DNA of 64,000 bases from positions 1-64,000 of the forward strand of contig NZ_VXCP01000006.1 of assembly GCF_011355085.1 (NCBI RefSeq). The letters run 5' to 3'. The position numbers and the translations under genes were made by a program. This DNA is from Pseudomonas akapageensis (GTDB taxonomy: Bacteria; Pseudomonadota; Gammaproteobacteria; Pseudomonadales; Pseudomonadaceae). This document shows positions 4,893 through 43,083 of the stretch, piece by piece. The first letter of the stretch is position 1; each line of letters begins with the position of its first letter. The notes under the pieces were generated by a model. It ran no database searches, had not been told where the DNA came from, and saw only the letters and a program-made list of their open reading frames with translations.

Positions 4893-4989
4893 GTTCTGAA
4901 TTGTCAGGCCTGAAATTTAAGCAATGCAGGTTTCAGGGGTAGCAGTACCCGATAGGCATGATCACCGCTATCAGCATCAAGGAACATCT

Positions 4990-11965: not shown

Positions 11966-12272
11966 GTGAATCTTCCATAATTGACCCGCGGCATGCTAAG
12001 CCAGGGGGCGTTTCAACGACAGGTTTGTTGTGTAGGAGATGTATTAAAAGATGTAAGGAAAAATCCCTCCTGCGGCAGATACTTTACATGCAAATGCAAC
12101 TCGTTACCATTACTGCTATGGTGAGGAGGGGGCCCTCGATCTCTCATTCCCACGCTCCGCGTGGGAATGCAGTGTCAATCGCTCCAGCGGTATTCACGAC
12201 GCAAAACGTCGCCCGACGCATTCCCACGCAGAGCGTGGGAACGAGGTCGCGGGGGTGAGGATGAGGGCGGGA
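11966..12272. other. Gene-free stretch upstream of the efflux operon
   Basis: This 307-bp gap holds the promoter region of the leftward efflux operon and a REP pair (12145-12245). Around 12088-12111 there is an A/T-rich segment with AATG and CATT half-sites spanning 19 bases, weakly reminiscent of a Fur box. I see no convincing gene. Confidence 0.4.
12145..12245. repeat. REP-type doublet with GCGTGGGAA palindromes
   Basis: Two short palindromic units sit 48 bp apart: CATTCCCACGC/GCGTGGGAATG at 12145-12169, and GCATTCCCACGC...GCGTGGGAACGAG at 12218-12245. The same unit recurs at 54949-55018, marking a dispersed intergenic repeat family. The two gene ends flanking it are the RND promoter region and the end of the leftward 12273-13472 gene. 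Confidence 0.75.
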
Positions 12273-26056: not shown

Positions 26057-27582
26057 TACCGGGTTTGAAGGTTGGCACTCGCAGTTACTGCGGTCGACAT
26101 GCTTGTTTGTCTGCGCGCCAACTGAGCATAGGCCACTCCTAGCCCGGCCACCGACCAATACACCAGGGGAATTACCGTAATGCTGCTGACAGTGACGATG
26201 GTCACCAGTATTCCGGCCAGCGTCGCCAACAGCACGCGTCCGAGTCGGCGCGTCTCATCGTCCTTGTTGGGAATGGAACGCATCGCCTTGCGGATGCCAA
26301 CCACAACAGTGGCGAAAAAAGCCACGAAAAGCGCCAAGCCGATCAGGCCGACCTTCAGCGCCACGCCGACATAGGTATTAACGATATCGATGATGCCCTG
26401 GCCCTGAATCATGGACTGCATTTCAGGTGTGTTGCGGAAATCGAAAGTACCCAGCAAAGGGTTGCGCTCGATGACGATCAATGCGTTGTCAATCAAGCGC
26501 TCCCGGTACGTGATGTTCTCTTTGTCCACCGTGCCGATGAACGGCAGCAGATCCAGCACCTTGTCCCCGCCGGGCACGATGCTCAGCAGGGGAATGGCGA
26601 GCACCCCGGCGAGTGCCAGCAGCGTCAGGCGTTTGACGGCGCTACGGCCGGTGGCGACGAACACGGCGATCATGGCGGCGGCACCGACCCAGGGACCTCG
26701 CGACAGCGGTGTCATCAGGCCGACGGCCAGCAGAAGGGCGCCGAGGTGGCGATGCAATCGGCTGCGTACACTCTCGCGCAGGAACAGGTAAAAGCCGAGG
26801 GCCACGCTGATGACGTAACCCAGTGCAATTGCCTGGCCGGTGCTGGCACTGGCACGTAGCGAGCCACCACGGCTCAAATAGGTGGCAGAACCCCACTGCA
26901 TGTCCAGGGCGCCGATCAGCGCGCTGTACAGCAGCCAATGGCGGGTATATTCGGCGAGACCAATAAGCGCCAGCAGCATGCCGGCGAGTACAAAGGCGAA
27001 CAGCGCATCCTTGAAGTCGCTGAGGTCCTTCAGTGCCCGACTGGCAACGTAATAAGGCAAAAAAACTTCGATGAACAGGTAGAACGTTTGGCGAAACGTG
27101 TCAGTGATGGTGGTTGCTCGCAGGCAGAGCAAGCTCATCAGCAGGATGTTGGCCGCCAGCAATCGGTCAGGCCAGGTACGTCCGAACGGGAGTGTGTCGG
27201 GACGCTTGCGCAAGGCCAGGAATGCCGGGAACAACACACACAATGCCAGTAGGCGAATATGGTCCAGGTCAAAAAAATAGTTGACCAGGCCCAGGCCGGG
27301 AATCCGCGCCTGAGCCGGCGGTATGAGAAACAGCAGAAGAAAAAACAGCGCCAGGGGGTTGTGTTCGCGTTGTCGTGCGAGGGTCAAAACGATCGCCGCA
27401 ATGCCCGCATACACCCAGAAACTGTGCGAAACAAAGGCCAGCAGCGTCAATGCGAACCACAGATTGCGACGGCGAGTGAAGTCGCCCTGGGGGATCAGGT
27501 CTGTTGCCGGTCGGCGTGCAAAGGCAAAAACGATGCCCGCCAGAACCAGAATGACGATCAACGCGCGTAGGTGCTCAGGCAT
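26056..27582 (-). CDS. Wzy-like O-antigen ligase/polymerase family membrane protein
   Basis: 508 residues with about 12 hydrophobic segments and a large loop (VPGGDKVLDLLPFIGTVD... up to FRNTPEMQSM) typical of the Wzy_C/O-antigen ligase family. The conserved LMTPLSRGPWVGAAAM motif precedes this loop, and ERNPLLGTFDF lies within it. It is expected to polymerise undecaprenyl-linked repeat units on the periplasmic side. It diverges from the flippase gene and is coupled downstream to the glycosidase. It lacks the Cys/Arg/His catalytic pattern of exosortases, so I do not call it one. Confidence 0.85.
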   Translation of the reverse strand: MPEHLRALIVILVLAGIVFAFARRPATDLIPQGDFTRRRNLWFALTLLAFVSHSFWVYAGIAAIVLTLARQREHNPLALFFLLLFLIPPAQARIPGLGLVNYFFDLDHIRLLALCVLFPAFLALRKRPDTLPFGRTWPDRLLAANILLMSLLCLRATTITDTFRQTFYLFIEVFLPYYVASRALKDLSDFKDALFAFVLAGMLLALIGLAEYTRHWLLYSALIGALDMQWGSATYLSRGGSLRASASTGQAIALGYVISVALGFYLFLRESVRSRLHRHLGALLLAVGLMTPLSRGPWVGAAAMIAVFVATGRSAVKRLTLLALAGVLAIPLLSIVPGGDKVLDLLPFIGTVDKENITYRERLIDNALIVIERNPLLGTFDFRNTPEMQSMIQGQGIIDIVNTYVGVALKVGLIGLALFVAFFATVVVGIRKAMRSIPNKDDETRRLGRVLLATLAGILVTIVTVSSITVIPLVYWSVAGLGVAYAQLARRQTSMSTAVTASANLQTR

Positions 27583-27679
27583 AGATTATTGGGCTTTTTT
27601 TATTGGTGAGCGACGCCTAATGGCATTCCCATTTGCGGCTATAGTCATTTCCATGACACAGAGCCTTGGGGTTGATGTT

Positions 27680-29056
27680 ATGCCTTCAATCGATTTATCG
27701 CCAACCATGAACCTTCGCAAGCGAGCGATATCTGCAGGGGCATGGAACCTGGGCTCGCTGGTCACGACTCAAGCCATTCGCCTGGGCGGCAACCTTTTGA
27801 TGGCCCGCTTGCTGGTGCCGGAAATGTTCGGTGTCATGGCCATTGCCACCACCGTCTCGGTGATCCTGCACTTGCTTTCCGATGTGGGCGTGCGCCAGAA
27901 CATCATCCAGAGCCCGCGTGGTGACGATCCGGTGTTTCTCAATACCGCCTGGACGGTACAGATCCTGCGCGGTTTTTCCCTTTTCGCCTTGACACTTCTG
28001 GTGGCGGGCTTTGCGTGGTTTGCGCAAGCCTTGAATCTGTGGTCGGCCGATTCCACCTATGCCGAACCGGAGTTGCCACTGGTGTTGGCCGTTACCGGTT
28101 TTACCGCGGTCATCTTCGGTTTTCAGTCGACCAAGATCGACCTGGCAGTTCGCACCTTCCAGCAGAAGAAAGTGGTGCTCGCCGAGTTCGCGTCCCAGGT
28201 TGCCGGCCTGCTGGTGATGCTCGGCATCGCTTACTTCACCAGGTCTATCTGGTCACTGGTGATTGCAGGGTTGTTCTCGGCACTGGTCAGCACGCTGCTT
28301 GGTCATCTCTGGTTTCAGGGTCCGCCTAACCGGATACAGTGGGACCGCACTGCGCTCACAGAGTTAGTCGCCTTCGGCCGTTGGATACTGTTGTCTTCGG
28401 CGGTAGGGGTATTGGCCATGAATGGCGATCGCATCTGGTTCGGCGGCAGCATATCGGCCGCCGATTTGGGTATCTACTCCATTGCCGGACTGATTCTGGG
28501 GGGCATTCAACTCGGGGTGCTGAAGTTGGTCGCGTCGGTGGCCCTGCCAGCCTTCGGCGAGGCAGCCAGAGCCAATGACACCGCGCGGCTGCGCGCGTTG
28601 TATTACCGCTTGAGATTGATTGTCGATCTTGCCTTGCTTTTTTTATGCGGGCTGTTGCTGACCGTCAGTCCACTCGTCATCAGCTGGTTGTACGACGCGC
28701 GCTATGCCGCCGCCGGCAGCATGTTGGGCATACTATCCCTGTCGTTTTTCATATTGCGTTTCACCCTGGCGCATCAGATTTGGCTTGCCATGGGGCTAAC
28801 CAAGTACCTGGCCATGGATAATATTATTCGCGTTGTCTCATTATGGCTGCTACTGCCATTGTTGTTGGCACTTGGCGGGTTGGATTATGCAATTTGGGGG
28901 GTTGCCCTGCATGCGCTTCCCACGCTTGTCCTGATCATTTATGTCAATTGTAAATTGGGGCTGTTCGATATCAAGCGTGAACTTCTTGTGCTACCAATGA
29001 TGGGGGTTGGCGCGTTGTGTGGAGAGCTAGTGGTAAGTGTCGCCAAATGGCTTTGA
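27680..29056 (+). CDS. Wzx-like polysaccharide flippase (MOP superfamily)
   Basis: 458 residues from ATG 27680; an ATG at 27620 with GGTGAG nine bases upstream would add 20 residues, so the start is uncertain. The conserved domain begins MNLRKRAISAGAWNLGS and has about 12 transmembrane helices, with VPEMFGVMAIATTVSV in the N-terminal half and RLRLIVDLALLFLCGLLLT in the second. It moves lipid-linked repeat units across the inner membrane. It diverges from the polymerase gene, so flippase and polymerase share a short promoter region of under 100 bp. Confidence 0.88.
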   Translation: MPSIDLSPTMNLRKRAISAGAWNLGSLVTTQAIRLGGNLLMARLLVPEMFGVMAIATTVSVILHLLSDVGVRQNIIQSPRGDDPVFLNTAWTVQILRGFSLFALTLLVAGFAWFAQALNLWSADSTYAEPELPLVLAVTGFTAVIFGFQSTKIDLAVRTFQQKKVVLAEFASQVAGLLVMLGIAYFTRSIWSLVIAGLFSALVSTLLGHLWFQGPPNRIQWDRTALTELVAFGRWILLSSAVGVLAMNGDRIWFGGSISAADLGIYSIAGLILGGIQLGVLKLVASVALPAFGEAARANDTARLRALYYRLRLIVDLALLFLCGLLLTVSPLVISWLYDARYAAAGSMLGILSLSFFILRFTLAHQIWLAMGLTKYLAMDNIIRVVSLWLLLPLLLALGGLDYAIWGVALHALPTLVLIIYVNCKLGLFDIKRELLVLPMMGVGALCGELVVSVAKWL

Positions 29057-29201
29057 TTTAATCTCGATCTCTTGCTACTTTCAAAGTGGTGGCAGATGGA
29101 CATTATTGAGGTGGTTGGCAGGGATGGTCGATCAGAAGGTGGTGTGACTTTGATGTTTAATTAAAATTACAACGCATTTCAACGTCGTGGAACTTTGAGT
29201 C

Positions 29202-29396
29202 ATGAGTGAACTTGATTTGAAATTCCCTGTGATGAGTCGAAGAGGCTTTTTCCAGGCGTGTGTTCTGTTGAGTGTAGGGGGGTATGTATTCGGACTTCCC
29301 CGCGTCGCCGCTCGGCCTTCTGTTGATAAACCAGAGTTTGTTCTTGTCAACGGCTGGGTGTTGCCTGCTCACTATTTTCGGAACGAGCGAGCATGA
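29202..29396 (+). CDS. 64-residue Tat-signal protein coupled to GMC oxidoreductase
   Basis: The product is essentially a twin-arginine signal (MSRRGFFQACVLLSVGG with RR-x-FF) plus about 30 mature residues (RPSVDKPEFVLVNGWVLPAH). Its stop overlaps the oxidoreductase start (ATGA). Larger Tat-targeted small subunits of GMC dehydrogenases (gluconate dehydrogenase gamma type) occupy the same position, so this may be a reduced version that exports or anchors the flavoprotein. The ribosome site is weak (GTGGAACTTTGAG). The mature part matches nothing I recognise. Confidence 0.65.
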   Translation: MSELDLKFPVMSRRGFFQACVLLSVGGYVFGLPRVAARPSVDKPEFVLVNGWVLPAHYFRNERA

Positions 29397-30856
29397 TCAA
29401 AGATTACCAGTCGCAGAAAGAACTGCGCGACCTTTATGACTTCTGCATCGTCGGGGGCGGGCCGGCCGGCATCACACTGGCGTTGCGTCTGGCCGGGTAT
29501 GGCTGGAGCGTGGTACTTCTCGAAGGCGGGGAGCACAATTATTCGCAGCGCTCGCAAAGCCTCTACAAGTGCTCATCCTCAGGCCTCAATGTCTACCTCG
29601 AGGAGACGCGCCTGCGCTTTCTTGGCGGTACCTCCAATCATTGGGCCGGGCGTTGCCGCCCCTTTCAGCAATCCGACTTCGCCGTGCCGCCTCCTGGGGA
29701 CTTGCCCGGTTGGCCCATTGAGTTTTCCGAGATAGAGCGTCATCTGCCGGCGGCCATGGCTATCCTGGATCTTCCGCTGGACTCGGGCTTCAAGACCATT
29801 AATGGTGCCATGGACAGCGAATTTGAAGCGGATCGCTTTTTGCTCAGCCCACCGACGCGATTTGCACAAAAATATGCCCGGGATCTTGAGGAGACCGAGG
29901 GACTTGATGTCTTCATCAATTGCAACTGCGTCGATCTGGAGTTTGACAATACGACCAGCCGCATAGCTGCGGTAGTGGTGTCTGACTACGACCTGCGCCG
30001 AGAAAGAGCGAGGGCAAAACATTTCATTCTGGCAACGGGCGCCGTCGAGAATGCCAGGCAACTGCTCAACAGCGAGTCCCTGGTGGCTGGCGGTGTCGTC
30101 AGCAGGGATGGCTTCGTCGGAAGTTGTTTCATGGAGCACCTGAATGTCGAAATGGGTACCTTCATTCTGATGGAGGGGCAGGATCCAGAGCCTCGACAGT
30201 ACTTCACTACCGATGCGTTTGTGATGGAGCACAAGTCAGGTAAAGGCAATGTATCGACTGCGCTTCTATCTGAAGTGAAATCCTATGGGCGAATGGCAGA
30301 AGTCAAGACCTTTCTCGAGACGCTATCCTGCGATATAGGGATTGCACATAAAATCGATTACATTGCCAAGTTTAATTGCCCGGGCGATGGGGTGATTACT
30401 ACTATGATTGAGCAGTTTCCCAATCGTAAAAGCCGCCTGTCCTTTCTCGAAGAGCGAGATGGATTAGGCATGGGCAAGGTGAACATAAACTGGGAACTCA
30501 GTCTTCAGGACAGGCATACCATCAAAACCATCGGGATGGAGATGGCAAAGTGCTTCGTAGAAGCAGGGCTTGGTTACGTCAAGTTGAGTGAGGGCGTATA
30601 TGATGTCTCGCAGCCACTGAAAATGACGCCCCATGCTCACCATATGGGGACTACGCGAATGGCATCTACGCCTGAATTCGGGGTTGTCGATCAAAACTGT
30701 AAAGTGTTCGGCACCGACAACCTTTACATGGCCGGCAGCAGTGTTTTTGCTACCGGCGGCGCCAGCAATCCCACTATGCCTATCGTGCAGCTTACCCTGA
30801 GATTGGCGGAGCATCTCAATCATCAAATGAGTTCGGCAGTGGCTGCGAATTCCTGA
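29393..30856 (+). CDS. GMC-family FAD oxidoreductase of EPS locus
   Basis: 487 residues without its own signal peptide. The FAD-binding Rossmann motif is FCIVGGGPAGITLALRLAG near residue 20, followed by LRFLGGTSNHWAGRC, ILATGAVENARQLL, and the C-terminal GMC_oxred_C region with HAHHMGTTRM and GGASNPTMPIVQLTLRLAEHL. The catalytic His lies in HHMG and Asn in GASNPT. Family members oxidise sugar or alcohol hydroxyls. Here the enzyme could oxidise a sugar residue of the polymer or its precursor. Coupling to a Tat-signal microprotein suggests export of the folded flavoprotein. Confidence 0.88.
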   Translation: MIKDYQSQKELRDLYDFCIVGGGPAGITLALRLAGYGWSVVLLEGGEHNYSQRSQSLYKCSSSGLNVYLEETRLRFLGGTSNHWAGRCRPFQQSDFAVPPPGDLPGWPIEFSEIERHLPAAMAILDLPLDSGFKTINGAMDSEFEADRFLLSPPTRFAQKYARDLEETEGLDVFINCNCVDLEFDNTTSRIAAVVVSDYDLRRERARAKHFILATGAVENARQLLNSESLVAGGVVSRDGFVGSCFMEHLNVEMGTFILMEGQDPEPRQYFTTDAFVMEHKSGKGNVSTALLSEVKSYGRMAEVKTFLETLSCDIGIAHKIDYIAKFNCPGDGVITTMIEQFPNRKSRLSFLEERDGLGMGKVNINWELSLQDRHTIKTIGMEMAKCFVEAGLGYVKLSEGVYDVSQPLKMTPHAHHMGTTRMASTPEFGVVDQNCKVFGTDNLYMAGSSVFATGGASNPTMPIVQLTLRLAEHLNHQMSSAVAANS

Positions 30857-31052
30857 GCGGGAGCGTTCTACATGGACAGGAGGCAAATTCACCAATAGTA
30901 GTGTGTTGATGCGTTGACTAGAGTGTACGAATGTTGAGTTCAAGGGGGAGACAATCCACTTTCGGAGTAATGCAGTGAAGGGTGGATAAAAACCGAAGGT
31001 GTATCTGGCTCTGGTTCAGTTATAAATCGCTGTATTTTGTGAGGCTGACAGG

Positions 31053-31670
31053 ATGATTGGTCTACTAAAGCGTGCTATTGCTCATTACGCCAAAACAACA
31101 GGGCGTGGTACCTCACTCTACAAAAAGTTTTGTAAACCGGATGGGTATCAATGGGCTGAACATATGGCGCGATGGGGGGGACTGCACTCCATCGGTAAAG
31201 GCGTATGGATCAACCTTGGGTGCAACATCACCGACCCGGGGATGCTACGAGTCGGCGACAACGTAGGTTTATCTGATTGCACAATATTCGGCCACGATGG
31301 CATCGTCCATATGCTCAATGCGCGTAACGGAACAAAACTCGATTCTGTTGGTGGCGTCGATATCCGATCTAATTCCTTTGTCGGCCATGGCGCTATCGTC
31401 ATGCAGGGCGTAACGATTGGCCCGGATTCAGTTGTGGCCGCTGGCGCTGTTGTACTCAGAGACGTTCCGCCCGGGGTCGTGGTCGGGGGGAATCCAGCCA
31501 GGGTTATCTGTACGATGGAAACGCTGGTGAAGAATGTCGAAGAGCGTTGCGCCGCTTATCCATGGATTGACCTCATCCAGCAGCGCAAGGGTGTATATGA
31601 CCCGGAACTGGAACCGAAGCTGAAAGCAATGAGAACAGAGTATTTTTTTGGCGAACAAGCAAATGGCTAG
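31053..31670 (+). CDS. Left-handed beta-helix acyltransferase (WcaF/Maa type)
   Basis: 205 residues with hexapeptide repeats: LGCNITDPGMLRVGDNVG, GGVDIRSNSFVGHGAIVM, and VTIGPDSVVAAGAVVLRDV, ending in VVVGGNPARVI, the hallmark of O-acetyltransferases that modify sugars. It has an N-terminal helical region before the coil. It probably acetylates an EPS sugar residue. Its last bases overlap the following glycosyltransferase start, so the genes are coupled. Confidence 0.87.
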   Translation: MIGLLKRAIAHYAKTTGRGTSLYKKFCKPDGYQWAEHMARWGGLHSIGKGVWINLGCNITDPGMLRVGDNVGLSDCTIFGHDGIVHMLNARNGTKLDSVGGVDIRSNSFVGHGAIVMQGVTIGPDSVVAAGAVVLRDVPPGVVVGGNPARVICTMETLVKNVEERCAAYPWIDLIQQRKGVYDPELEPKLKAMRTEYFFGEQANG

Positions 31671-32619
31671 TGCAGCCCTTGATGTCTTGGTAGTTAATTA
31701 CAATACAGCATCTCTGCTGCAGCCGATGTTTAATGCGTTACGCCAGTCAAATAACGCGGAGCGCACGCGTTATTTGGTGGTGGACAATGCCTCTGCCGAT
31801 AATTCGCTGGAGTGCCTGGCAAGTATTTGTCCAGAGGCATTGCAACTGGCCAATGAAAATAATGTTGGTTTTGGACGTGCCAATAATCAATTGGTCGAAC
31901 ACCTGCAAGGCAAGTACGCGTTGCTCCTCAATACCGATGCCTTCGTAGATTTGGATACCCTGAGCAAGACCCTCGAATACATGGAGACTCATACTGATTG
32001 CGGTGTCCTGGGCGTTCGGCTGGTCGGACGAGAGGGCGATTTGCAACCCTCCTGCCGCTATTTTCCAACTCCGTTTAATGTCTTTATCGCCACTACAGGG
32101 CTTGAACGTTTTTTCCCTGGGGTGAAAAAGGTCGACGACATGACCTGGGATCATAACTCGGTGCGTGAGTGCGACTGGGTGCCCGGGTGCTACTACCTGA
32201 TCCGTCGTGAAGTCATTGACAAGGTGGGCTTGTTCGACCCGCGCTACTTTCTTTATTACGAGGAGGTCGATCACTGCAAACGCGTTAAACAGGCGGGTTG
32301 GAAGGTGGTTTATTACCCGCATACCACGGTGGTGCATATCGGCGGTGAAAGCGCCAAATCTGTTGACCAGCTCAACGCGGCCAGTCGCCAGATTCCCAGG
32401 TTGCAAATTGAAAGTGAGCTTTTGTACTTCCGCAAGCACCACGGCCTATCGGGTTTGACCGTACATATGTTCCTGGTCAGCCTGGGTGATCTGATTCTGG
32501 CGCTAAAAGCTCTATTGAAGGGCCGCGGCTGGGCCGCCATGGGTGCACGCTGGCAGCATGCCCGGGTTACCTGGGCATTGCTGCGCGATACCCATTTCGC
32601 CAGGCAACCAACACGGTAG
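31663..32619 (+). CDS. GT2-family glycosyltransferase (rhamnosyltransferase-like)
   Basis: 318 residues from ATG 31663, which overlaps the end of the acyltransferase gene; an in-frame TTG at 31648 is less likely. A GT-A fold with VLVVNYNTASLLQPM, YLVVDNASADNSLE, NNVGFGRANNQ and LLLNTDAFVD (DxD-like) is followed by DWVPGCYYLIRREV and YYEEVDHCKRVKQAGW. This is the WbbL/rhamnosyltransferase subgroup, which adds sugars to lipid-linked repeat units on the cytoplasmic side. Confidence 0.9.
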   Translation: MASAALDVLVVNYNTASLLQPMFNALRQSNNAERTRYLVVDNASADNSLECLASICPEALQLANENNVGFGRANNQLVEHLQGKYALLLNTDAFVDLDTLSKTLEYMETHTDCGVLGVRLVGREGDLQPSCRYFPTPFNVFIATTGLERFFPGVKKVDDMTWDHNSVRECDWVPGCYYLIRREVIDKVGLFDPRYFLYYEEVDHCKRVKQAGWKVVYYPHTTVVHIGGESAKSVDQLNAASRQIPRLQIESELLYFRKHHGLSGLTVHMFLVSLGDLILALKALLKGRGWAAMGARWQHARVTWALLRDTHFARQPTR

Positions 32620-32627
32620 ATCAATCT

Positions 32628-33152
32628 ATGTTCGAAAATATACGTGGGGATTTGCGTGCTTACGGTGGTGATTGGGGGGGCCAGGGGTTCTGGGTGATGC
32701 TGGTCTATCGCTTCGGCCGCTGGCGCTACGGTGTGCGCCCGGCGTTGTTGCGAAAGTTGCTCTCCTTTATCTACAAAGTGCTCTTCAAATGGGTGCAGAT
32801 CGTGACGGGTATCGAGCTGCCGTGTGAAGTGGTGATCGGTCGCAACTTCGTCATCGATCATTTCGGCGGAATCGTGATCAGTGGTTATGCGCAGTTTGGC
32901 GATAATTGCCGTATCCGCAATGGTGTGGTCGTGGGGCTGAAGAATGTGAGTGAGCCGATTGCCCCGGTGATAGGCAACAATGTTGATATCGGTGCAGGGG
33001 CCAAGGTGCTGGGCAATATCCGCATTGGTGACAATGTCGTGATTGGTGCCAATGCCGTGGTGCTGACAGATGTCCCGGACGACTGCCTGGCAGTGGGCGT
33101 GCCTGCGACTATCAAGAAAATGCAGCGCGCAGAAGTAAGGAAATGCTCATGA
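32628..33152 (+). CDS. Serine acetyltransferase-like (CysE-fold) acyltransferase
   Basis: 174 residues: an N-terminal helical region (YRFGRWRYGVRPALLRKL) followed by hexapeptide repeats (EVVIGRNFVIDHFGGIVI, IGNNVDIGAGAKVLGNI, IGDNVVIGANAVVLTDV) and the usual GVPATI end. EPS-locus members of this CysE-like group acylate sugars rather than serine. It lies between two glycosyltransferases and its stop overlaps the next start (ATGA). It is the second acyltransferase of the locus. Confidence 0.87.
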   Translation: MFENIRGDLRAYGGDWGGQGFWVMLVYRFGRWRYGVRPALLRKLLSFIYKVLFKWVQIVTGIELPCEVVIGRNFVIDHFGGIVISGYAQFGDNCRIRNGVVVGLKNVSEPIAPVIGNNVDIGAGAKVLGNIRIGDNVVIGANAVVLTDVPDDCLAVGVPATIKKMQRAEVRKCS

Positions 33153-34135
33153 ACGCCATGGCTACTGGCCTTGGTGTTGTTGTGATCGGTCGCAATGAAG
33201 GCCTAAGGCTTGAGCGCTGCCTGGCTTCGCTGGTCGCTTCGGGGCAGAAGGTTGTGTATGTCGACTCCGGATCAACGGATGGTTCAGTGCAGATGGCACT
33301 GAGGTTTGGGGTCGAGGTGGTCGAGTTGGATATGGCAATTCCCTTTACGGCTGCGCGTGCGCGCAATGAAGGGTTTGCCTGCGCGCAACGCTTGTTGCCG
33401 GCGCTGCGTTACGTGCAGTTCGTCGACGGTGATTGCGAAGTTGCCGGCGGCTGGCTACTCCGGGCACAAGCCTTTCTTGATGCGCGACCAGAGGTTGCGG
33501 TGGTCTGCGGGCGGCGTCGGGAACGTTTTCCACAGCGCTCGATTTACAACTTGCTGTGTGATCTTGAATGGGACACGCCGATAGGTGAGGCCAGGGCCTG
33601 TGGTGGCGATGCGCTGATGCGGGCTGACGCGTTCGCTTCAGTGTCGGGGTTTCGAGCGGATCTCATTGCCGGAGAAGAGCCCGAGTTGTGCGTGCGTCTG
33701 CGTACGGCTGGATGGAAGGTCTGGCGTCTGGAGGAGGACATGACCTTGCACGATGCAGCCATGACCCGCTTCGGCCAATGGTGGCGGCGCACCTTGCGCA
33801 GTGGCCATGCCTTCGCCCAGGGCGCATTCTTGCATGGGGCCGCACCGGAGCAACATTGGCTGCGGGAGTCGCGCCGTGCCTGGCTATGGGGCCTGGGGTT
33901 GCCACTGGCGACTATCGGCGCGTGTCTGCTGCTGGGATGGTCCGGGCTGCTTCTGCTGCTGGTCTATCCACTGCAGGTGGTGCGCCTGGCTCGCCGGGGC
34001 GAACGATCTGCGCGCGAAAACTGGTTGCAGGCTTTCTTTCTGGTGCTGGGCAAATTTCCCGAGATGCTCGGGCAAGTCAAGTTTCTGTTGAGCAGATTCA
34101 GTGCCGGCAAGACGACGCTGATCGAATACAAGTGA
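33149..34135 (+). CDS. Membrane-associated GT2 glycosyltransferase
   Basis: 328 residues from ATG 33149; an in-frame ATG at 33143 leaves only two bases from AAGGAA, so it is less likely. The GT-A motifs are VVVIGRNEGLRLERCLASL, YVDSGSTDGSVQMA, FVDGDCEVAGGW (DxD) and GGDALMRADAF, then EEPELCVRLRTAGWKVW. A C-terminal hydrophobic pair (LGLPLATIGACLLLGWS and LLLLLVYPLQVV) anchors it to the membrane. Likely adds one sugar of the EPS repeat unit. Confidence 0.9.
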   Translation: MNAMATGLGVVVIGRNEGLRLERCLASLVASGQKVVYVDSGSTDGSVQMALRFGVEVVELDMAIPFTAARARNEGFACAQRLLPALRYVQFVDGDCEVAGGWLLRAQAFLDARPEVAVVCGRRRERFPQRSIYNLLCDLEWDTPIGEARACGGDALMRADAFASVSGFRADLIAGEEPELCVRLRTAGWKVWRLEEDMTLHDAAMTRFGQWWRRTLRSGHAFAQGAFLHGAAPEQHWLRESRRAWLWGLGLPLATIGACLLLGWSGLLLLLVYPLQVVRLARRGERSARENWLQAFFLVLGKFPEMLGQVKFLLSRFSAGKTTLIEYK

Positions 34136-34142
34136 GACTTCC

Positions 34143-35078
34143 ATGACGTATCGGCACATATTGAAAAGCGTGGTTTTTTTGCATGCAGGGTACTCCTTCA
34201 GAGCATTGAATAATAAATTAAAGTTAATGGTTTTAATTGCCAGGCACTGGTCTGAGCTCAAGTTGTTTTTGCAGCGAATGTCGAATGCTCTGGGCAGGTC
34301 CGGCTTTGAAAGGCTGGGAAATGATTGTGTCGGTGTTGTTCATTGGCCTTACATCAGTAAATGCTGGAGGCCACAGGATAGACTGGGTGTGCTGGCTTCC
34401 CATTATGAAGTGGTGACAAAGAGCTGTCCGCAGCTGTTACTACTGGGACGCAATGAAAGTTTGATCTTGAGTGACTTGTCGGAGTGCGCTGTCGGTTGTT
34501 CCCTGGTGCTGGATCGTCCGATGTGGTTTATGCGCGAAGGAGAACTGGTGCTGAATTTGTTTCAGGGGGATTTGCGCATTGCATCAATAGCGTTCACCTT
34601 GTGTCGCACGGAGACTGAATTATGTATTTTTATCGGTGCGGTCCAGGGGATACACAAGGGCGTGGAGAGTGACAAGTCTCTGGATATTTACAGGGAACTA
34701 ACAAAGAATTTTGAAGGCCTGCGGCCAAGAAGTTTTCTGATCGAAGCAATCAAGTATATCGCAATCAATATTGGAGTTGAAAAAATTTATGCGATAGGGG
34801 ATGGCTATCGTCATCATCGTCATCCGTATTTTGGGGCTCACAAAGCCCAGGAACTGGCGGCCAATTATGATGTCATCTGGTTGGAACATGGGGCTTTTCC
34901 ATCAGGGCGTGAAGACTTTTTTGAAATTCCCCTGACCCTGTCGAAAAAAGCGCTTGATGATATTCCCTCAAAGAAACGCGCCATGTACCGCAGGCGTTAT
35001 GAGCTTCTTGAGTGTGTTTTTACAAGAATAGACGAAGTGTTGACAGGCAGTTCTGCAGTGAGCGCAAGCGCTCATTAG
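34143..35078 (+). CDS. DUF535 (VirK/YbjX) family protein
   Basis: 311 residues, no signal peptide. Conserved family phrases include GVVHWPYISKCW, LGVLASHYEVV, GELVLNLFQGD, IGAVQGIHKGV, IYAIGDGYRHHRHPYFG and SKKRAMYRRRYELLE. VirK/YbjX proteins of enterobacteria affect outer-membrane properties and virulence, but their biochemistry is unknown. Its position between glycosyltransferases, 7 bases after the previous gene, implies a role in this locus. The gene is A/T-richer than its neighbours, suggesting independent acquisition. Confidence 0.85.
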   Translation: MTYRHILKSVVFLHAGYSFRALNNKLKLMVLIARHWSELKLFLQRMSNALGRSGFERLGNDCVGVVHWPYISKCWRPQDRLGVLASHYEVVTKSCPQLLLLGRNESLILSDLSECAVGCSLVLDRPMWFMREGELVLNLFQGDLRIASIAFTLCRTETELCIFIGAVQGIHKGVESDKSLDIYRELTKNFEGLRPRSFLIEAIKYIAINIGVEKIYAIGDGYRHHRHPYFGAHKAQELAANYDVIWLEHGAFPSGREDFFEIPLTLSKKALDDIPSKKRAMYRRRYELLECVFTRIDEVLTGSSAVSASAH

Positions 35079-35285
35079 CTCAATATCCGAGTATAGAGGG
35101 TATTGATTTTAAACGGTTTTTTATTTGCCCTTCCTGGGTGAGTGTCTACACGCATTTTATTTGGTCAATAATTGACGTGTGGTCGGTATAAGCGACGTGG
35201 TGTTGTTGACGTTCCTGATAACTGTACTAGCTTTGGGAATAAAGCAGCATTAATCCACCGTAACGATATCCAAGCATGGGTTCCT

Positions 35286-36488
35286 ATGCGTATCGCTTAT
35301 TTTATCAATCAATACCCCAAAGTTAGCCATAGCTTCATTCGTCGCGAGATTTTGGCGTTGGAACGTCAGGGCTTTGCAGTGCAGCGTATTGCTCTGCGTG
35401 GCTGGGACGCCGAATTGGTGGACGACGAAGACGCTTCCGAACGCGATAAAACCTGCTATGTGCTGCAGGGTGGCGTCAAAGGGCTGTTATTGCCTGTGTT
35501 GCAGGTACTGCGCGCCCAGCCGCGGCGCTTTCTTTCGACGCTGCGCCTGGCGCTGCGCATGGGCCGGCGTGCCGATCGCCCTTGGCCGTACCATTTGATC
35601 TATTTGTCCGAGGCGTGCCGCCTGCTGCCCTGGTTGCACGCGTTTGGCGCCGAGCATGTGCATGCGCATTTCGGCACCAACTCAACCGAGGTGGTGATGC
35701 TGGCCAATGCACTCGGCGGGCCGGCGTACAGTTTTACCGTGCACGGCCCGGAAGAATTCGACAAACCGCAGTTTATTCATTTGGGCGAGAAAGTCCGGCG
35801 CGCGGCCTTTGTCGCGGCTATCAGCTCTTATGGGCGCAGCCAGCTGTTTCGCTGGGTGGCGCATGCGCACTGGGCAAAGGTAAAGGTGGTGCATTGCGGC
35901 CTGGAGCGGGCGTTTCACGATGTGCCCGCAGTTGCAGTGCCGTCCGTACCGCGATTGGTTTGCGTGGGCCGCTTGTGTGAGCAAAAGGGCCAACTATTGT
36001 TGATTGAGGCTGCCCGCATCCTGGCAGCGCAAGGCGTGGCGATCGAAATCGTACTGGCCGGCGACGGTGAAATGCGTGGGCAGATCGAAGCCCTGATTGC
36101 CCTGTACGGCTTGCAGGCGCAGGTGCGGATTACCGGCTGGATCAGCAGCGAGCAGGTGCGGGCGGAAATGCTTGCGGCGCGTGCCCTGGTGTTGCCGAGC
36201 TTCGCCGAGGGTTTGCCGGTGGTCATCATGGAGGCCATGGCCTTGCGCCGGCCTGTGCTGACGACGTATGTAGCCGGCATTTCCGAGTTGGTACGTCAGG
36301 GTGAGAACGGTTGGTTGTTTCCTGCTGGGGCGGTGGATGAGTTGGCAGCGGCGCTGGCGGACTGCCTTGCGCAACCTGCCGAGGTCTTGCAGCGGATGGG
36401 CGAGGCGGCTTATCAGCGAGTGCTGGAGCGACACGACATCGATACCGAAGCGGCCAAGCTGGCCGATTTGTTTAGGACGCAAGCATGA
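35286..36488 (+). CDS. GT4-family glycosyltransferase
   Basis: 400 residues, starting at ATG 35286 where the conserved domain begins (MRIAYFINQYPKVSHSFIRR). Upstream in-frame codons back to 35172 look non-coding. The N-terminal lobe contains HVHAHFGTNSTEVVMLAN and VHGPEEFDK; the C-terminal lobe has LVCVGRLCEQKGQLLLIEA and the E-x7-E retaining-enzyme motif in PSFAEGLPVVIMEAMA. It transfers a hexose from a nucleotide sugar to the lipid-linked repeat. Its end overlaps the next gene (ATGA). Confidence 0.92.
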   Translation: MRIAYFINQYPKVSHSFIRREILALERQGFAVQRIALRGWDAELVDDEDASERDKTCYVLQGGVKGLLLPVLQVLRAQPRRFLSTLRLALRMGRRADRPWPYHLIYLSEACRLLPWLHAFGAEHVHAHFGTNSTEVVMLANALGGPAYSFTVHGPEEFDKPQFIHLGEKVRRAAFVAAISSYGRSQLFRWVAHAHWAKVKVVHCGLERAFHDVPAVAVPSVPRLVCVGRLCEQKGQLLLIEAARILAAQGVAIEIVLAGDGEMRGQIEALIALYGLQAQVRITGWISSEQVRAEMLAARALVLPSFAEGLPVVIMEAMALRRPVLTTYVAGISELVRQGENGWLFPAGAVDELAAALADCLAQPAEVLQRMGEAAYQRVLERHDIDTEAAKLADLFRTQA

Positions 36489-37672
36489 TCACATTATTTG
36501 ATTGGCTTCTCAGCGTACTGCTCATACTCCTCTTCTTGCCGGTGTTGGTGCTTTTTGTGCAGGTGCTGCTGGCCTGCCTGCCGGTGCGATCGCTCCCATC
36601 GGCGCAAGGTTCGCGTCCGCGGGTGGCGGTATTGGTGCCGGCACACAATGAATCCTCGGTCATCATCGCGACGCTCAATAGCATTCGGCCGCAGTTGCTG
36701 GAAGGCGATCGTCTGTTGGTGGTGGCGGACAACTGTGCTGATGACACGGCCGCGCTGGTCCGCGCTTCGGGCGCCGAGGTGGTGGAGCGCAGCAATGATC
36801 AGCAGCGTGGCAAGGGGTATGCGCTGGACTTCGGGGTGCGTCACCTGGCGGAGCGGGCACCGGACGTCATGATCATTGTCGATGCCGATTGTCAGCTGGG
36901 CGAGGGCGCTATTGACCGTCTGGCAATGTGTTGCTTCGACTCCGGTCGGCCCACGCAAGCACTTTATCTGATGCGCGCTCCAGAACATTCCGGGCTGAAA
37001 GTGCGGATCGCCGAGTTTGCCTGGTGTGTGAAGAATCTGGTGCGGCCGCAAGGTTGGGCTCGGTTGGGTCTGCCCTGTCAGTTGATGGGCTCAGGAATGG
37101 CCTTCGTCTGGCGGGATCTGGCTTTGATCGATTTAGCCAGTGGCCACATCGTCGAAGATTTGAAGATGGGCTTCGAATTCTGTCGCCGCGGCAAACCACC
37201 CCTGTTTTGCCCTGATGCACGAGTGACCAGTTATTTTCCGCGCAGTGATGAAGGTTTGAGTACCCAACGTACGCGCTGGGAGCATGGTCATCTGGGGGTA
37301 ATCCTCGGTGATGCACCAAGGTTGTTCGTAGAGTCGATTGGCCGGGGTAACTGGAACCTGCTGGCCATGACGCTGGATTTATTGGTCCCGCCGTTGGCCT
37401 TGCTGGCTTTGGCGTTGGGGGCGGCCTTTAGCCTGTCATGGCTGGTATTCATGCTGGGAGGAGCCTGGCCCCCGGCATTGATCGCTTCTGCCGGGGTTGC
37501 ACTCTTGAGTGCGACTATCGTGCTGGCATGGAGCCAATTTGCGCGCGCAGTGATCTCTTTTTCAGCCTTGTTGTATGCGCCGTTCTACGCGGTGAAGAAG
37601 ATACCCCTGTATCTGGGCTTTTTGCTCAAGCGCCAAGTGGAGTGGGTGCGTTCTTCGCGAGGTGACCAATAA
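36485..37672 (+). CDS. Membrane GT2 glycosyltransferase (processive type motifs)
   Basis: 395 residues: an N-terminal helix (LLSVLLILLFLPVLVLFVQ), GT-A domain with VAVLVPAHNESSVI, VVADNCADDT, IIVDADCQLGEGA, then HIVEDLKMGFEFC (ED motif) and STQRTRWEHGH (QxxRW-like), and three C-terminal hydrophobic segments. The ED and QR-RW motifs recall synthase-like enzymes, but it lies among repeat-unit transferases, so it more likely adds one sugar. Overlaps both neighbours, indicating tight coupling. Confidence 0.9.
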   Translation: MITLFDWLLSVLLILLFLPVLVLFVQVLLACLPVRSLPSAQGSRPRVAVLVPAHNESSVIIATLNSIRPQLLEGDRLLVVADNCADDTAALVRASGAEVVERSNDQQRGKGYALDFGVRHLAERAPDVMIIVDADCQLGEGAIDRLAMCCFDSGRPTQALYLMRAPEHSGLKVRIAEFAWCVKNLVRPQGWARLGLPCQLMGSGMAFVWRDLALIDLASGHIVEDLKMGFEFCRRGKPPLFCPDARVTSYFPRSDEGLSTQRTRWEHGHLGVILGDAPRLFVESIGRGNWNLLAMTLDLLVPPLALLALALGAAFSLSWLVFMLGGAWPPALIASAGVALLSATIVLAWSQFARAVISFSALLYAPFYAVKKIPLYLGFLLKRQVEWVRSSRGDQ

Positions 37673-38445
37673 TGCGCACTTTGGCCTGGCAGAATAACTG
37701 GCAAACAATTATCCATAACCTCAGGGTGGTCAGTGATCCCGGTGATGAACAAGGCTTGATTGATACGCTATCCAGGCCTGAGGCGGCGACAGTGCTTGGA
37801 TTCGTCAATGCCCATGCCATGAACCTGGTGGCGTGCAACAGCGATTACTATAACGCGCTGTCGGCTGCTCACGTGTTGTTACGGGATGGCTCCGGCATGT
37901 CCATCCTGTATCACCGACTCGGCCTGTTGCCGGGGCTGAATATGGATGGCACGGATTTCATTCCCAAGTTACTGGCTGCGTTCAAGGGGCGGCGCGTGGC
38001 TTTCTGGGGCACCCGCGAGCCCTTTCTGACGAATGCGGTGCAGCGTTGCGAAGCGATATATGAAGTAAATGTCGTTTCTGCTCACCATGGGTTTGCCGAG
38101 GTGGATGCCTACATACAACTGGCCCGGCAACTGCAGCCGGAATTGGTTGTGCTGGGCATGGGCATGCCCAAGCAAGAAGCTGTTGCTGCCAGGCTGACTG
38201 CCATTGGAGTGCCCTGTCTGATTGTGTGCGGCGGGGCGATCCTGGATTTTCTCGGCGGCAAGGTTACCCGGGCTCCGCATTGGGTTCGTCATATCGGTTG
38301 TGAGTGGGTATTCAGGCTGATGAGTGAGCCAAAGCGATTATTCGTTCGCTATGTGGTTGGTAATCCGAAGTTCTTGTTGCGCACGCTGATCTTCAGAAAT
38401 GTTCTGCTCAGGGGGAACCTGAAAAAGACTTACCATCTCTGGTGA
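37672..38445 (+). CDS. WecG/TagA/CpsF family glycosyltransferase
   Basis: 257 residues; its ATG overlaps the upstream stop (TAATG). Conserved GT26 phrases: VLGFVNAHAMNLVACN, LLRDGSGMSILYHRLG, NMDGTDFIPKLL, VAFWGTREP, VVLGMGMPKQE, CGGAILDFLGGKVTRAP and WVFRLMSEPKRLFVRY. Enzymes of this family transfer the second sugar onto undecaprenyl-diphospho-sugar, fitting the priming transferase encoded at 41463-42887. Confidence 0.92.
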   Translation: MRTLAWQNNWQTIIHNLRVVSDPGDEQGLIDTLSRPEAATVLGFVNAHAMNLVACNSDYYNALSAAHVLLRDGSGMSILYHRLGLLPGLNMDGTDFIPKLLAAFKGRRVAFWGTREPFLTNAVQRCEAIYEVNVVSAHHGFAEVDAYIQLARQLQPELVVLGMGMPKQEAVAARLTAIGVPCLIVCGGAILDFLGGKVTRAPHWVRHIGCEWVFRLMSEPKRLFVRYVVGNPKFLLRTLIFRNVLLRGNLKKTYHLW

Positions 38446-38925
38446 CGTTCGTCGGTCCTTGCTGCACGATTTTCCCACGAAGCAGATGACCTTCGTCGAC
38501 GCCGCGCAGGTCGTCAACGCAAGCAAAAAATTCGGGCACGCCAGTCTGGCAAACGCCCGCTCAACCCTGGCGCAGAGCCCGGCGATCGATCTCACTGATC
38601 GTCGGATCCCTGCTCAGCGGCAAACGTGCCTGGAACGTCTCCAGAAAATCCGGGGCGATTCAGTGGCTGATCGGATACTGCTGCTACAGTGATATCAATG
38701 TCACCTGAACGTCGAATAAACGGCCAGAGATGGATTTTTGACGCCACCCGTTTTGGGCGCGCCTGACGGGCACTGTGCAAGGTGGCAGCGATCTGCCGGG
38801 GTGAGGCTGACAAGGCCTGTCAGAGCCTGCGAAGCGCCTAGTGAAGCGTTAAAAAGACTTCATGAGATTGGCTGTGCCACGGCTGGCGGCTCATATTACG
38901 CATTGACCTCCAAGGGGTGAATTCG
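38446..38925. other. Gene-free 480-bp stretch inside the EPS locus
   Basis: Between the WecG-type gene and the PrsT-like gene no convincing coding region is visible. A 77-codon rightward frame at 38459-38692 (MLHDFPTKQMTFVDAAQ) and a leftward one at 38592-38813 match nothing I know and lack good ribosome sites. The gap may be a gene remnant or may hold the promoter of the distal block. Confidence 0.45.
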
Positions 38926-41388
38926 ATGAAGTTGTATTTGAGCAAAGTTGGCAAGGACGCCGCTATCGGGCTCCTTGCAATTTGCTTTTTTGGCTTGGCG
39001 GCCTGCTCTTCGCCGGTTGAGAAGGCCATCAAGTATTACGAGAAAGGTCTGGCGCTGATGGTTCAGGGCGACTTGCCCAAAGCCCGCATCGAATTGCAGA
39101 ACGCGTTACAAATCAGTCCCGGACTCACCAGGGCATGGTTTGCGCTCGCCCAGATCGCCGAACAGCAGGGGGACTGGGAACAACTGTTCGGTTTGCTCAA
39201 CAAGGTTATTGAACATGATCCTCAGCATCTTGAAGCCCAGCTGAAGTTGGGGCGCATGCTGCTGGCTGCCGGTCGAATGGACCAGGCGCTTGTCGCGAGT
39301 GATATCGCCTTCGGTTTGGCGCCAAATAATGCCGAGGTACTCGGGTTGCGAGCTGGCGTGCTCTACAAAGGGGGCAATGTGGCAGGGGCAGTCGCCCAGG
39401 CAAATGCGGCGCTGAAGACAAGCCCGAATAATATGGATGCGCTGGTGGTGCTGGCGACTGAACGCCTGGCGGCCAACGATGTTGACAGGGCCATTGAATA
39501 TCTCGACCGAGGCTTGAAAGTCAGCGAGAAAAATATTGCCCTGCAACTCATCAAGGTACAGGCGCTGGACGCTTTAGGTCAGACAGGGTCTGCCGAGGTT
39601 GTTTTGCGAAAGCTGGTTGAGCTCTACCCGCAAACTCGCGCCTTGCGCCATATGCTTGCCCAGTTCTACCTGACTCACGAGCGTGCAGATGCGGCTGAAG
39701 CCGAGTATCGGGCCATTGCAGTGGAGAATCCGAATGACGTTCAAGCCCGCCTGGATAGGGTGCGCTTTATCGCTTCCGTCAAAGGGACAAAAGCAGCGAT
39801 CGGACAATTGCAGGAAATGATTGCCAGGGACTCTGGCAATAATGAGCTCAACTTCCTGCTGGCCGCCACGCTGCAATCTCAGGGTGATCACCGCGCTGCC
39901 GCGGCGGTATTTCGCTCTATCATCGAGAAATCCGGCGATAGTACTGATGCCATCAAGGCCAAAGGGCTGTTGGCGGGCGTGTTGCTCTGGAATGGCGACA
40001 AGCCGGCAGCGCAGTCCCTTATCAACCAGGTGCTCGCCGGGGATCGGCGTAATGAACAGGGCCTGCTGCTCAAGGCCAGCCTGGCGATAGACGAGCGCCA
40101 ACTCGATCTGGCGTTTGCCGATTTGCATACCATCCTGCGCGATTCGCCCAATTCCCCCCGTGCTCTGCTGATGCAGGCCAAGGCCCATGAGCTTGCAGGG
40201 GCGACTGAACTTGCCCAGGAAAGCTATATGAAGGCTTACGAGGCAGGCAAGCCGACGCTGCCCTTTGGCATCACCTATGCCGAGTTTCTGTTGCAGCGTG
40301 GTCAGGTGGCCCGTGCCGAGGCTGTCGCGTCCGAGATTTTGCAGTCAGAGCCGCGGAATGTGCCGGCGCTGAGGTTGCTTGCGCAGGCTCGGATCAAGCA
40401 GAGCAAATGGTCGGGCTCGCAAGCGGTGGCGGATGAAATGAACAAGCTGCCAGGTCACCAAGAGCTGGCAGAGCAGATCCGTGGAAGCATCTTTGCTGCT
40501 CGCAAGGATTACGTGGGAAGTATTGCAGCGTTTCGCCGCGCCTACGATGCCGCGCCTTCGGATGTTCAGGCGATGGTGTCCCTGGCGCGCGCCTACCTGC
40601 TGGCCGGCAAGGCGAGCGAGGCAGTGGCTTTCCTTGACTCGGTAATCAAAGCAAACCCGGGAAATGCGAGAGCGCTTTTGCTCCTCGGCGAGCTGCATGC
40701 AGTGAGTGGCAATAACATGGCCGCCATTCAGGCCTTCCGGCAAGTCATTAGCCAGCAACCGCAGCTGGCGGCCGGTTATGTCAATTTGGCCAGTTTGCAA
40801 ATGCGAGCCGGCCGCATCCTTGAGGCGGAGCAGATTATTGATCAGGGTGTGGCGAAGGTTCCTGGCAATTTTGAGCTGTCCATGGCAAGAGCGGGCATCC
40901 TTGAGGTGTCCGGGCGGTTTGATGAGGCAATCGAGGCGTACGAGAGCCTGCTCAAGGACCATCCAGGTTCCGATGTGCTGGTCAACAATCTTGCGAGCCT
41001 GCTGAGCGAGCACCGCGCCGACCAGGCGAGTTTGATTCGCGCACACGGTTTGGCTCAGCGCTTCAGGCGCAGCGATGTCCCTTATTTCAAGGACACCTTG
41101 GGCTGGACGAGTTATCGGTTAGGTAATGTCGAGGAGGGGATTGCGCTAATCGAGGACGCTGCACGCGAATTGCCCGAACAGCCGGCGTTCCGTTATCACC
41201 TCGGGATGAGCTATCGGGCACTGAATAAAAATGAGCAGGCGCGCAAGGAGCTCGAAAAGATGCTCGAGCTGAGTCAAGGGAATAGTTCTTACGACGCTGA
41301 GCGGGTCCACCAGGCGCTGGGAATATTGAACAGGTTCAAGGAGCCTATCATGTATGAGGCGGGTCATTCAGGACTGACAGTTAATTGA
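38926..41388 (+). CDS. PrsT-like TPR-repeat lipoprotein (exosortase/EPS-system type)
   Basis: 820 residues from ATG 38926 with AAGGGG upstream; an in-frame GTG at 38917 is possible. Lipoprotein signal (FGLAACSSP) precedes more than 20 TPR-like units, beginning KAIKYYEKGLALMVQGDLPK and including IAAFRRAYDAAPSDVQAMV and EAIEAYESLLKDHPGSDVL. Length, lipobox, first repeat and position beside the priming transferase match the PrsT family found with XrtA/PEP-CTERM EPS loci. It probably scaffolds the assembly machinery in the periplasm. The precise role is unknown. Confidence 0.87.
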   Translation: MKLYLSKVGKDAAIGLLAICFFGLAACSSPVEKAIKYYEKGLALMVQGDLPKARIELQNALQISPGLTRAWFALAQIAEQQGDWEQLFGLLNKVIEHDPQHLEAQLKLGRMLLAAGRMDQALVASDIAFGLAPNNAEVLGLRAGVLYKGGNVAGAVAQANAALKTSPNNMDALVVLATERLAANDVDRAIEYLDRGLKVSEKNIALQLIKVQALDALGQTGSAEVVLRKLVELYPQTRALRHMLAQFYLTHERADAAEAEYRAIAVENPNDVQARLDRVRFIASVKGTKAAIGQLQEMIARDSGNNELNFLLAATLQSQGDHRAAAAVFRSIIEKSGDSTDAIKAKGLLAGVLLWNGDKPAAQSLINQVLAGDRRNEQGLLLKASLAIDERQLDLAFADLHTILRDSPNSPRALLMQAKAHELAGATELAQESYMKAYEAGKPTLPFGITYAEFLLQRGQVARAEAVASEILQSEPRNVPALRLLAQARIKQSKWSGSQAVADEMNKLPGHQELAEQIRGSIFAARKDYVGSIAAFRRAYDAAPSDVQAMVSLARAYLLAGKASEAVAFLDSVIKANPGNARALLLLGELHAVSGNNMAAIQAFRQVISQQPQLAAGYVNLASLQMRAGRILEAEQIIDQGVAKVPGNFELSMARAGILEVSGRFDEAIEAYESLLKDHPGSDVLVNNLASLLSEHRADQASLIRAHGLAQRFRRSDVPYFKDTLGWTSYRLGNVEEGIALIEDAARELPEQPAFRYHLGMSYRALNKNEQARKELEKMLELSQGNSSYDAERVHQALGILNRFKEPIMYEAGHSGLTVN

Positions 41389-41462
41389 TAATTTTGTTTT
41401 CATTGCTGTTTTTTTCATTGGTTGGCAGGAGCTTTGGCATTTCATTTTAAGGAGGTCTGAAT

Positions 41463-42887: not shown

Positions 42888-43083
42888 CCGCACTTGAGTG
42901 GCTGGGCGATTACAACGTGCGGCCGGGTAAACCCACTTGAAATATGGGATGCCCGGCGAAAGAGTGAGAATGAGCCTGAAACCGGAGTGGGGAAAGAAAA
43001 GAGTTCTGGCGGACGGATTGCATCGACTTGAAGGGGGGGCGGCGCGAACCGGTGAGTTGTTCAACGCCGCGCAAAAGAAACTG

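Follow-up and report, generated by a model that had tools for sequence, protein, structure and literature searches.

A small gene in Pseudomonas akapageensis encodes a 64-residue protein made up of a twin-arginine (Tat) signal and a short, highly conserved C-terminal tail, and it overlaps the start of a gene for a GMC-family flavoenzyme that carries no signal. The two products probably constitute a minimal Tat hitchhiker pair, in which the microprotein would lend its Tat signal in trans and thereby export the folded flavoenzyme. The window, meaning the whole stretch of DNA analysed here (64,000 nucleotides, positions 1 to 64,000 of contig NZ_VXCP01000006.1, assembly GCF_011355085.1), holds the following features of the pair.

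29202..29396, + strand: Tat microprotein, 64 aa, proposed minimal Tat carrier (ORF list; kept 5' of the GMC gene)
29202..29312, + strand: Tat signal of the microprotein, residues 1-37, SRRGFF and a hydrophobic stretch (sequence)
29334..29381, + strand: conserved tail EFVLVNGWVLPAHYFR, residues 45-60, putative docking segment (row conservation)
29393..29396, + strand: ATGA stop/start overlap (microprotein TGA at 29394-29396, enzyme ATG at 29393)
29393..30856, + strand: GMC-family FAD oxidoreductase, 487 aa, without signal sequence (ORF, Pfam, PDB profile)
29453..29470, + strand: FAD-binding GGGPAG, enzyme residues 21-26 (G21, G23, P24, A25 and G26 invariant in 31 rows)
30641..30643, + strand: enzyme His417 in HHMGTTRM (invariant in 31 Pseudomonas-type rows)
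30767..30769, + strand: enzyme Asn459 (invariant in 31 Pseudomonas-type rows)

The gene pair and its conservation among close relatives

The microprotein (MSELDLKFPVMSRRGFFQACVLLSVGGYVFGLPRVAARPSVDKPEFVLVNGWVLPAHYFRNERA, 64 codons) opens with S-R-R-G-F-F within its signal, followed by the hydrophobic stretch, with a possible cleavage site after VAA. It matches no Pfam or NCBIfam family at E<=1, and the best hit of a PDB profile search was the Tat signal of CueO (E 0.023); a match to the NGWVL of a tail spike in that search (E 0.026) was taken as chance. The 487-residue protein is a GMC oxidoreductase (PF05199, E 9.4e-19, Pfam). Its N-terminus, MIKDYQSQKELRDLYDFCIVGGGPAG, provides only 20 residues, not signal-like, ahead of GGGPAG, and since it passes directly into this FAD-binding motif, the enzyme itself lacks a signal. 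We take His417 to be the likely catalytic base and Asn459 the likely second catalytic residue, as in GMC enzymes. The original prediction of a 64-residue Tat-signal frame overlapping a signal-less FAD oxidoreductase through ATGA is confirmed (29202-29396 and 29393-30856); its description of the small protein as little more than an RR signal is not, the C-terminal NGWVL tail being the most conserved part.

Conservation was followed across 96 close loci (L001 and L005-L099), window included, assembled from 66 named loci and the best 30 of 48 genus matches, with enzyme identities of 64.7-100%; because 19 genomes entered through both collections, these represent 77 distinct pairs. Retention of the small frame beside homologous oxidoreductases had been set beforehand as a refutation test. 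The microprotein lies directly 5' of the GMC gene in 96/96 of these loci (77 distinct pairs), and in 13 of the 14 assessable non-Pseudomonas members of the enzyme clade described below. Spacing from stop to start is -4 in 84 loci, +2 in 5 and +8 in 7, so tight spacing is constant and the ATGA overlap is not. A frameshift fusion of the two frames is ruled out by the 12 of 96 loci without overlap. Nor was a natural microprotein-enzyme fusion seen among the 157 loci, many of them overlapping, that contain a GMC match.

The Tat consensus [STGND]RRx[FLI][LIVFM] is present in 95 of the 96 microproteins, and the distance from RR to the end is 48-60 residues in all 96; lengths were counted from RR because listing by the first in-frame start made some microproteins too long. 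Among 32 aligned rows the invariant positions are M1, R13, R14, V47, N50, G51, W52, V53 and P55, from which it follows that the tail is conserved more than the signal; the segment between signal and tail differs in both length and sequence. The tail FVVINGWVLP is nearly invariant as protein while its third codon positions vary: across its ten codons, variability at codon positions 1/2/3 is 0.064/0.012/0.364 (58 distinct sequences), and the Tat block gives 0.225/0.175/0.415 (74 distinct sequences). These values come from 94 of 96 loci, with identical blocks counted once; the other 2 were missed under a 420-base limit. The pattern indicates selection on the microprotein as a protein, and the small frame is a genuine gene. 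Being short, and running into the start codon of the enzyme gene in 84 of 96 loci, the frame might also be envisioned as a translational leader, or as open by chance, with no function as a protein; the codon variability of the tail, and the recurrence of the same tail far outside Pseudomonas at a different spacing to the enzyme gene, leave that explanation with almost no credibility.

In a survey of 298 genomes of the genus, the GMC enzyme occurs in 48 and the microprotein (profile E<=2e-23) in those same 48. The profile gave 53 matches in total; the other 250 genomes account for 5 weak ones (E 4.4e-4 to 9.6e-4) in frames of 183-621 aa, all ending at or before the tail region of the profile. 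Named loci come from Pseudomonas in 64 of 66 cases and from genomes named Pantoea in 2 (L086 and L089). These two have a Pseudomonas-type pea locus with an enzyme identity of 65-66%, and their genome names are probably wrong. Locus L013 is the same pair as L046 drawn from the other collection, with a TAG inside its enzyme match.

Distribution beyond Pseudomonas and the larger Tat partners

Outside Pseudomonas, 13 enzymes of 30-40% identity have a Tat microprotein ending in (N/D/S/A)GW(V/I/L)(L/V) (L101-L104, L106, L110, L112-L117 and L131). Searching 321 genomes of the class with the enzyme profile at E<=1e-60 yielded 5 homologues outside the genus. The enzymes of L101-L104 are 34-40% identical, and the microproteins upstream of them end in IIVNGWVL, IVIDGWVL, IIVNGWVL and LLVNGWVV, respectively; at L105 the contig starts too near the enzyme for the upstream side to be judged, and a 365-residue Tat protein lies downstream. 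A wider enzyme profile, applied to 398 genomes of the phylum at E<=1e-45, found 25 places in 24 genomes, of which 9, window included, have the microprotein (the others being L110, L112-L117 and L131). The microprotein profile returned 9 matches at E<=1.2e-7 in the same 398 genomes, all reaching the tail and all adjoining a GMC gene. Remaining matches have E>=7.7e-5 and mostly end ahead of GW; three weak ones that reach GW (in G789, G966 and G895) lie in frames of 208-747 aa.

On an Azospirillum plasmid (L106, an alphaproteobacterium) the microprotein is found at 11802-11990. It is annotated there as a 62-residue hypothetical protein with the start placed after the RR motif, so that its Tat signal would escape notice. 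In 18 diverse rows, including 12 non-Pseudomonas ones, G51 and W52 are invariant, as is R-R; the whole microprotein measures 43-65 aa in 12 aligned distant rows.

A maximum-likelihood tree of 43 enzymes gives this distribution an evolutionary shape. Its 32 non-Pseudomonas homologues comprise 13 with a microprotein, 6 with a larger Tat partner, 12 with none found and 1 (L148) cut by its contig. A branch with support 100/99 separates 24 microprotein rows, L108 and L148 from the 6 rows that have a larger Tat partner and a further 11 for which no partner was found; no label shuffle out of 500 was as clustered as the observed tree. Only this split is used, since several outer branches are long. Within the enzyme clade outside Pseudomonas, 13/14 assessable members have the microprotein, L148 being cut by the contig; none was found for L108, whose genome carries a microprotein-bearing paralogue about 4 kb away. 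At L132 (G835 contig 3), two clade enzymes, one with a microprotein, lie about 4 kb apart near sugar-epimerase-like genes.

The larger Tat partners of the sister enzymes span 131 to 365 aa, the L128 partner (at least 285 aa) being cut by the end of its locus; they lie downstream of the enzyme in L105, L109, L118, L122 and L128, and upstream in L123. L123 (660-1450, reverse complement) has a cytochrome c-like gene, a 131-residue Tat protein and then the GMC enzyme, a three-gene order that recalls the hitchhiker dehydrogenases. In L105 (1843-2940) and L128 (2967-3825), both + strand, the starts of the Tat proteins (365 and at least 285 aa) overlap the ends of the sister GMC genes, and both proteins have a GW(K/S)LSxxECQL motif near residue 120 with further sequence beyond it. 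The C-terminal region of the L122 partner reads VVIDGWVLSETEANL plus about a dozen residues. When 554 ORFs were ranked with a 15-column score matrix of the microprotein tail, this partner came first at 21.1; the next score, 13.6, is a GMC enzyme's own SGWPL. The remaining partners ranked 8 (L128), 10 (L105), 14 (L118, via another stretch), 29 (L109) and 86 (L123), so a common origin of microprotein tail and larger partner is supported for L122 only. A Pfam search at E<=5 with the six larger partners and four microproteins (one range a codon off) gave no domain above cut-off, with TAT_signal below cut-off in L105 and L103; a pectinacetylesterase match in this set was set aside as chance. The best PDB match of the L109 partner had E 1.3.

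Kinship with hitchhiker dehydrogenases and the proposed export route

The nearest solved structures of the enzyme are Tat-hitchhiker dehydrogenases acting on fructose and glucose. By profile against the PDB, the alpha subunit of Burkholderia cepacia FAD-dependent glucose dehydrogenase (BcGDH) is first (E 5.5e-39), followed by the large subunit of fructose dehydrogenase (4.4e-31), with pyranose oxidase the next match after the hitchhiker dehydrogenases (1.2e-20). The structural comparison used a model of the L104 enzyme, which is about 35% identical to the window enzyme. Its top match is the fructose dehydrogenase large subunit (Z up to 40.2, 446 residues, 4.0 A); the next family reaches Z 34.9, with choline oxidase and pyranose oxidases at about 35 and BcGDH, at 34.3, tied with that group. 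Gluconobacter fructose dehydrogenase (PDB 7w2j, 9jqa), this best structural match, is likewise sugar-oxidising and about 22% identical to the L104 enzyme. It has a larger small subunit, a 3Fe-4S cluster and a heme c subunit. The pyranose oxidase / C-glycoside oxidase group (PDB 9fl2, 7dve, 7qf8) shares the fold, with profile values of 1.2e-20 to 3.8e-13; the window enzyme scores 58.7 bits against pyranose oxidase TIGR02462, under its 544.9 cut-off, and we know of no Tat partner in this group.

That known GMC dehydrogenases use a larger Tat-targeted subunit, as the original prediction held, is borne out by BcGDH (gamma/alpha/beta; PDB 6a2u, 8grj), which like the present pair combines a GMC subunit with a separate Tat small subunit (PMC6719666). 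That small subunit, 168 aa long with a 47-residue signal, is considered secretion-promoting; the hydrophobic tail at its C-terminus lies over the contact surface with the catalytic subunit (PMC6719666). Several differences stand against these shared features. The mature BcGDH small subunit has 121 aa in five helices, whereas that of the microprotein would have 19-33 aa (by the permissive cleavage rule given below). BcGDH alpha carries a 3Fe-4S cluster (Cys212/218/222), and its system includes a cytochrome c subunit; none of the 43 GMC rows, the window enzyme among them, has the corresponding C-x5-C-x3-C motif, and no CxxCH occurs in ORFs of at least 60 aa on either strand of window positions 26,000-43,500, leaving no electron-transfer partner nearby, though one may be encoded elsewhere in the genome. 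Electron transfer therefore probably differs from that of BcGDH. The pair thus has a signal-less GMC subunit, an adjacent small Tat protein and closest kinship to BcGDH alpha and fructose dehydrogenase; a folded mature small subunit is absent, the microprotein matching no Pfam family at E<=1. Since it lacks this subunit, the 3Fe-4S motif and an adjacent cytochrome, the pair is not counted as a member of the hitchhiker dehydrogenases. Tat-hitchhiker export of GMC dehydrogenases is known, and the best reading is that the microprotein pair works like such a system with a tiny carrier.

Because the tail of the BcGDH small subunit lies at the interface, and the microprotein keeps both a signal and a hydrophobic tail, docking through NGWVL is proposed. 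The flavoenzyme would fold in the cytoplasm and take up FAD there; the microprotein's C-terminal tail, possibly a beta-hairpin around Asn-Gly followed by the invariant Trp, would dock on the folded enzyme and supply the twin-arginine signal in trans; and the complex would be exported through the Tat system. Afterwards the signal would probably be clipped, leaving a peptide of about 15-33 residues on the enzyme, or would otherwise stay in place as an anchor. The Pseudomonas enzyme, once in the periplasm, would oxidise a hydroxyl group on the Pea polysaccharide or on its repeat unit. Docking, Tat export and cleavage are steps that we infer from sequence.

Cleavage bears directly on one alternative, in which the microprotein would be a Tat-inserted membrane tether whose signal remains uncleaved and whose periplasmic tail holds the enzyme, so that it both exports and anchors. 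The very short mature part is consistent with a tether, as are the 6 of 96 microproteins without a permissive site and L104 and L131, where no clear site is visible by eye. Against it, a permissive AxA-like site ([AVSTILGC]xA) lies between the hydrophobic stretch and the tail in 90 of 96 loci, where it would leave a mature microprotein of 19-33 aa, and the variable signal-to-tail segment fits a processed linker as well. The signal is thus probably cleaved, and we consider the tether unlikely, if the more serious of the competing explanations. For the preferred reading, the six microproteins of 96 without even a permissive site count as a point against, as do L108 without a microprotein, the lack of a nearby electron-transfer partner, the low confidence of the AlphaFold2 models described next, and the 12 of 32 tree homologues for which no Tat partner was found, 11 of these 12 lying outside the microprotein clade.

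Structure prediction of the pair used AlphaFold2 on an artificial in-frame L104 microprotein-enzyme chain with its two stops read as residues. With GMC rows only, the microprotein part had a pLDDT of 37-50; with microprotein rows added by nested anchor rows, the tail block rose to 56 and the rest stood at 34-44, in an alignment where about the first 13 residues of the GMC rows fall in linker columns. (MAFFT aligned microprotein rows onto the GMC enzyme's own GWPI.) Both models contain a low-confidence hairpin (39-42/45-48), and neither run docks the microprotein confidently. The absence of docking in these models of an artificial chain, along with the lack of a signal on the enzyme, would suit a microprotein that is a cytoplasmic or membrane accessory, such as an FAD-loading chaperone or activator, itself a Tat substrate, serving a cytoplasmic enzyme that acts on nucleotide sugars. 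Such a role would leave it less clear why 95 of 96 loci retain the Tat consensus and all 18 diverse rows have R-R, why some sister enzymes adjoin a gene for a larger Tat protein, and why one of the nearest solved profile relatives leaves the cytoplasm together with a small Tat subunit; we regard it as distinctly improbable.

Genomic setting and implications

The window pair sits in a cluster of the pea type, the remainder of which is as follows.

27323..29056, + strand: Wzx-like polysaccharide flippase frame (start putative), first in the pea order (Polysacc_synt_3, E 3.3e-40, 27590-29056)
31053..42887, + strand: rest of the pea-like cluster (Pfam/NCBIfam; some names read from ORFs), with an LbH acetyltransferase, GT2, serine-acetyltransferase-like protein, GTs, PrsT-like TPR protein and WcaJ-like phosphoglycosyltransferase

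In P. putida KT2440, the gene table of PMC4287175 lists PP_3132 as a transporter, PP_3133 as 'Oxidoreductase, putative', PP_3134 as a conserved domain protein, PP_3135 as a GT, PP_3136 as a serine O-acetyltransferase and PP_3137 as a GT2. The order of that pea cluster (PP_3132-PP_3142) is consistent with the window cluster, the likeness over PP_3132-PP_3137 being one of annotation and order, not of alignment (PMC4287175). The table, which is not a sequence, differs in having no small-gene entry between PP_3132 and PP_3133 (PMC4287175). In the open-licence literature as far as its text is accessible, no paper describing a Tat microprotein paired with a GMC enzyme was found, and PP_3133 is assigned no function past 'oxidoreductase, putative'; the words oxidoreductase and Tat are absent from the accessible text of a survey of Pea distribution (PMC7716237).

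A pea-type wzy-like gene lies within 8 kb in all 66 named loci, and other window genes have homologues there in most of them (GT2 65/66, SAT-like 65/66, LbH 61/66, Wzx 53/66). L046 has the microprotein and enzyme without the downstream pea glycosyltransferases (GT2 and SAT-like missing). The placement of the pair inside an exopolysaccharide (EPS) locus, as originally described, thus stands for the window, where the cluster is of pea type; the pair is not an EPS speciality, since outside Pseudomonas it mostly has other neighbourhoods. The L102 pair lies between lipB- and lipA-like genes and the L101 pair beside folate-type genes (both read from ORFs), and the L106 pair is near flagellar genes. 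An EPS-only role was rejected: pea-type similarity (E<=1e-4) occurs in 3 of 14 wider non-Pseudomonas regions (L132, L135 and L144), and the enzymes of L135 and L144, with their pea-type neighbours, have no microprotein.

PEP-CTERM-like features occur around pea in the window. A protein with a VPLPA-type tail (15617-16234) matches EppA, 'EPS-associated small membrane protein', below cut-off at E 3.6e-15, and the PrsT-like protein (38917-41388) scores 296.8 of 312.2 bits. Elsewhere in the window, a leucyl-tRNA synthetase frame (4893-7587, + strand; TIGR00396 E 7e-226 over 5416-7584) has an in-frame stop shortly 5' of 5416 and comes after VgrG- and phospholipase-like genes (ORF reading); it may be a second copy, decayed or specialised.

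Many of the enzyme's near profile relatives oxidise sugars or glycosides and the operon makes a polysaccharide, which makes oxidation of Pea likely; we tentatively infer that Pea or its repeat unit is the substrate, and are equally cautious about the electron acceptor. If export occurs as proposed, PP_3133 of the pea operon would act outside the cytoplasm, and an oxidised sugar would be predicted in Pea.

More broadly, we lean towards the view that these microgenes form a family of 'signal peptides in trans', each coding solely for a Tat signal and some 15-30 residues of docking tail, and passed on together with a single GMC clade across gamma- and alphaproteobacteria. Such a microprotein may be the smallest Tat carrier in nature. 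It would be related, by reduction or expansion, to the larger Tat partners (131 to at least 365 aa) found beside some sister enzymes, and at least the L122 partner has the same GW tail. Because the microprotein matches no Pfam or NCBIfam family, annotation can easily overlook carriers of this kind or place their start wrongly, as happened with Azospirillum. If the view is correct, a peptide of about 15-30 residues would suffice to couple a folded 487-residue flavoenzyme to the Tat machinery, and the pair would offer both a minimal natural system for studying what a Tat carrier requires and a portable export tag.
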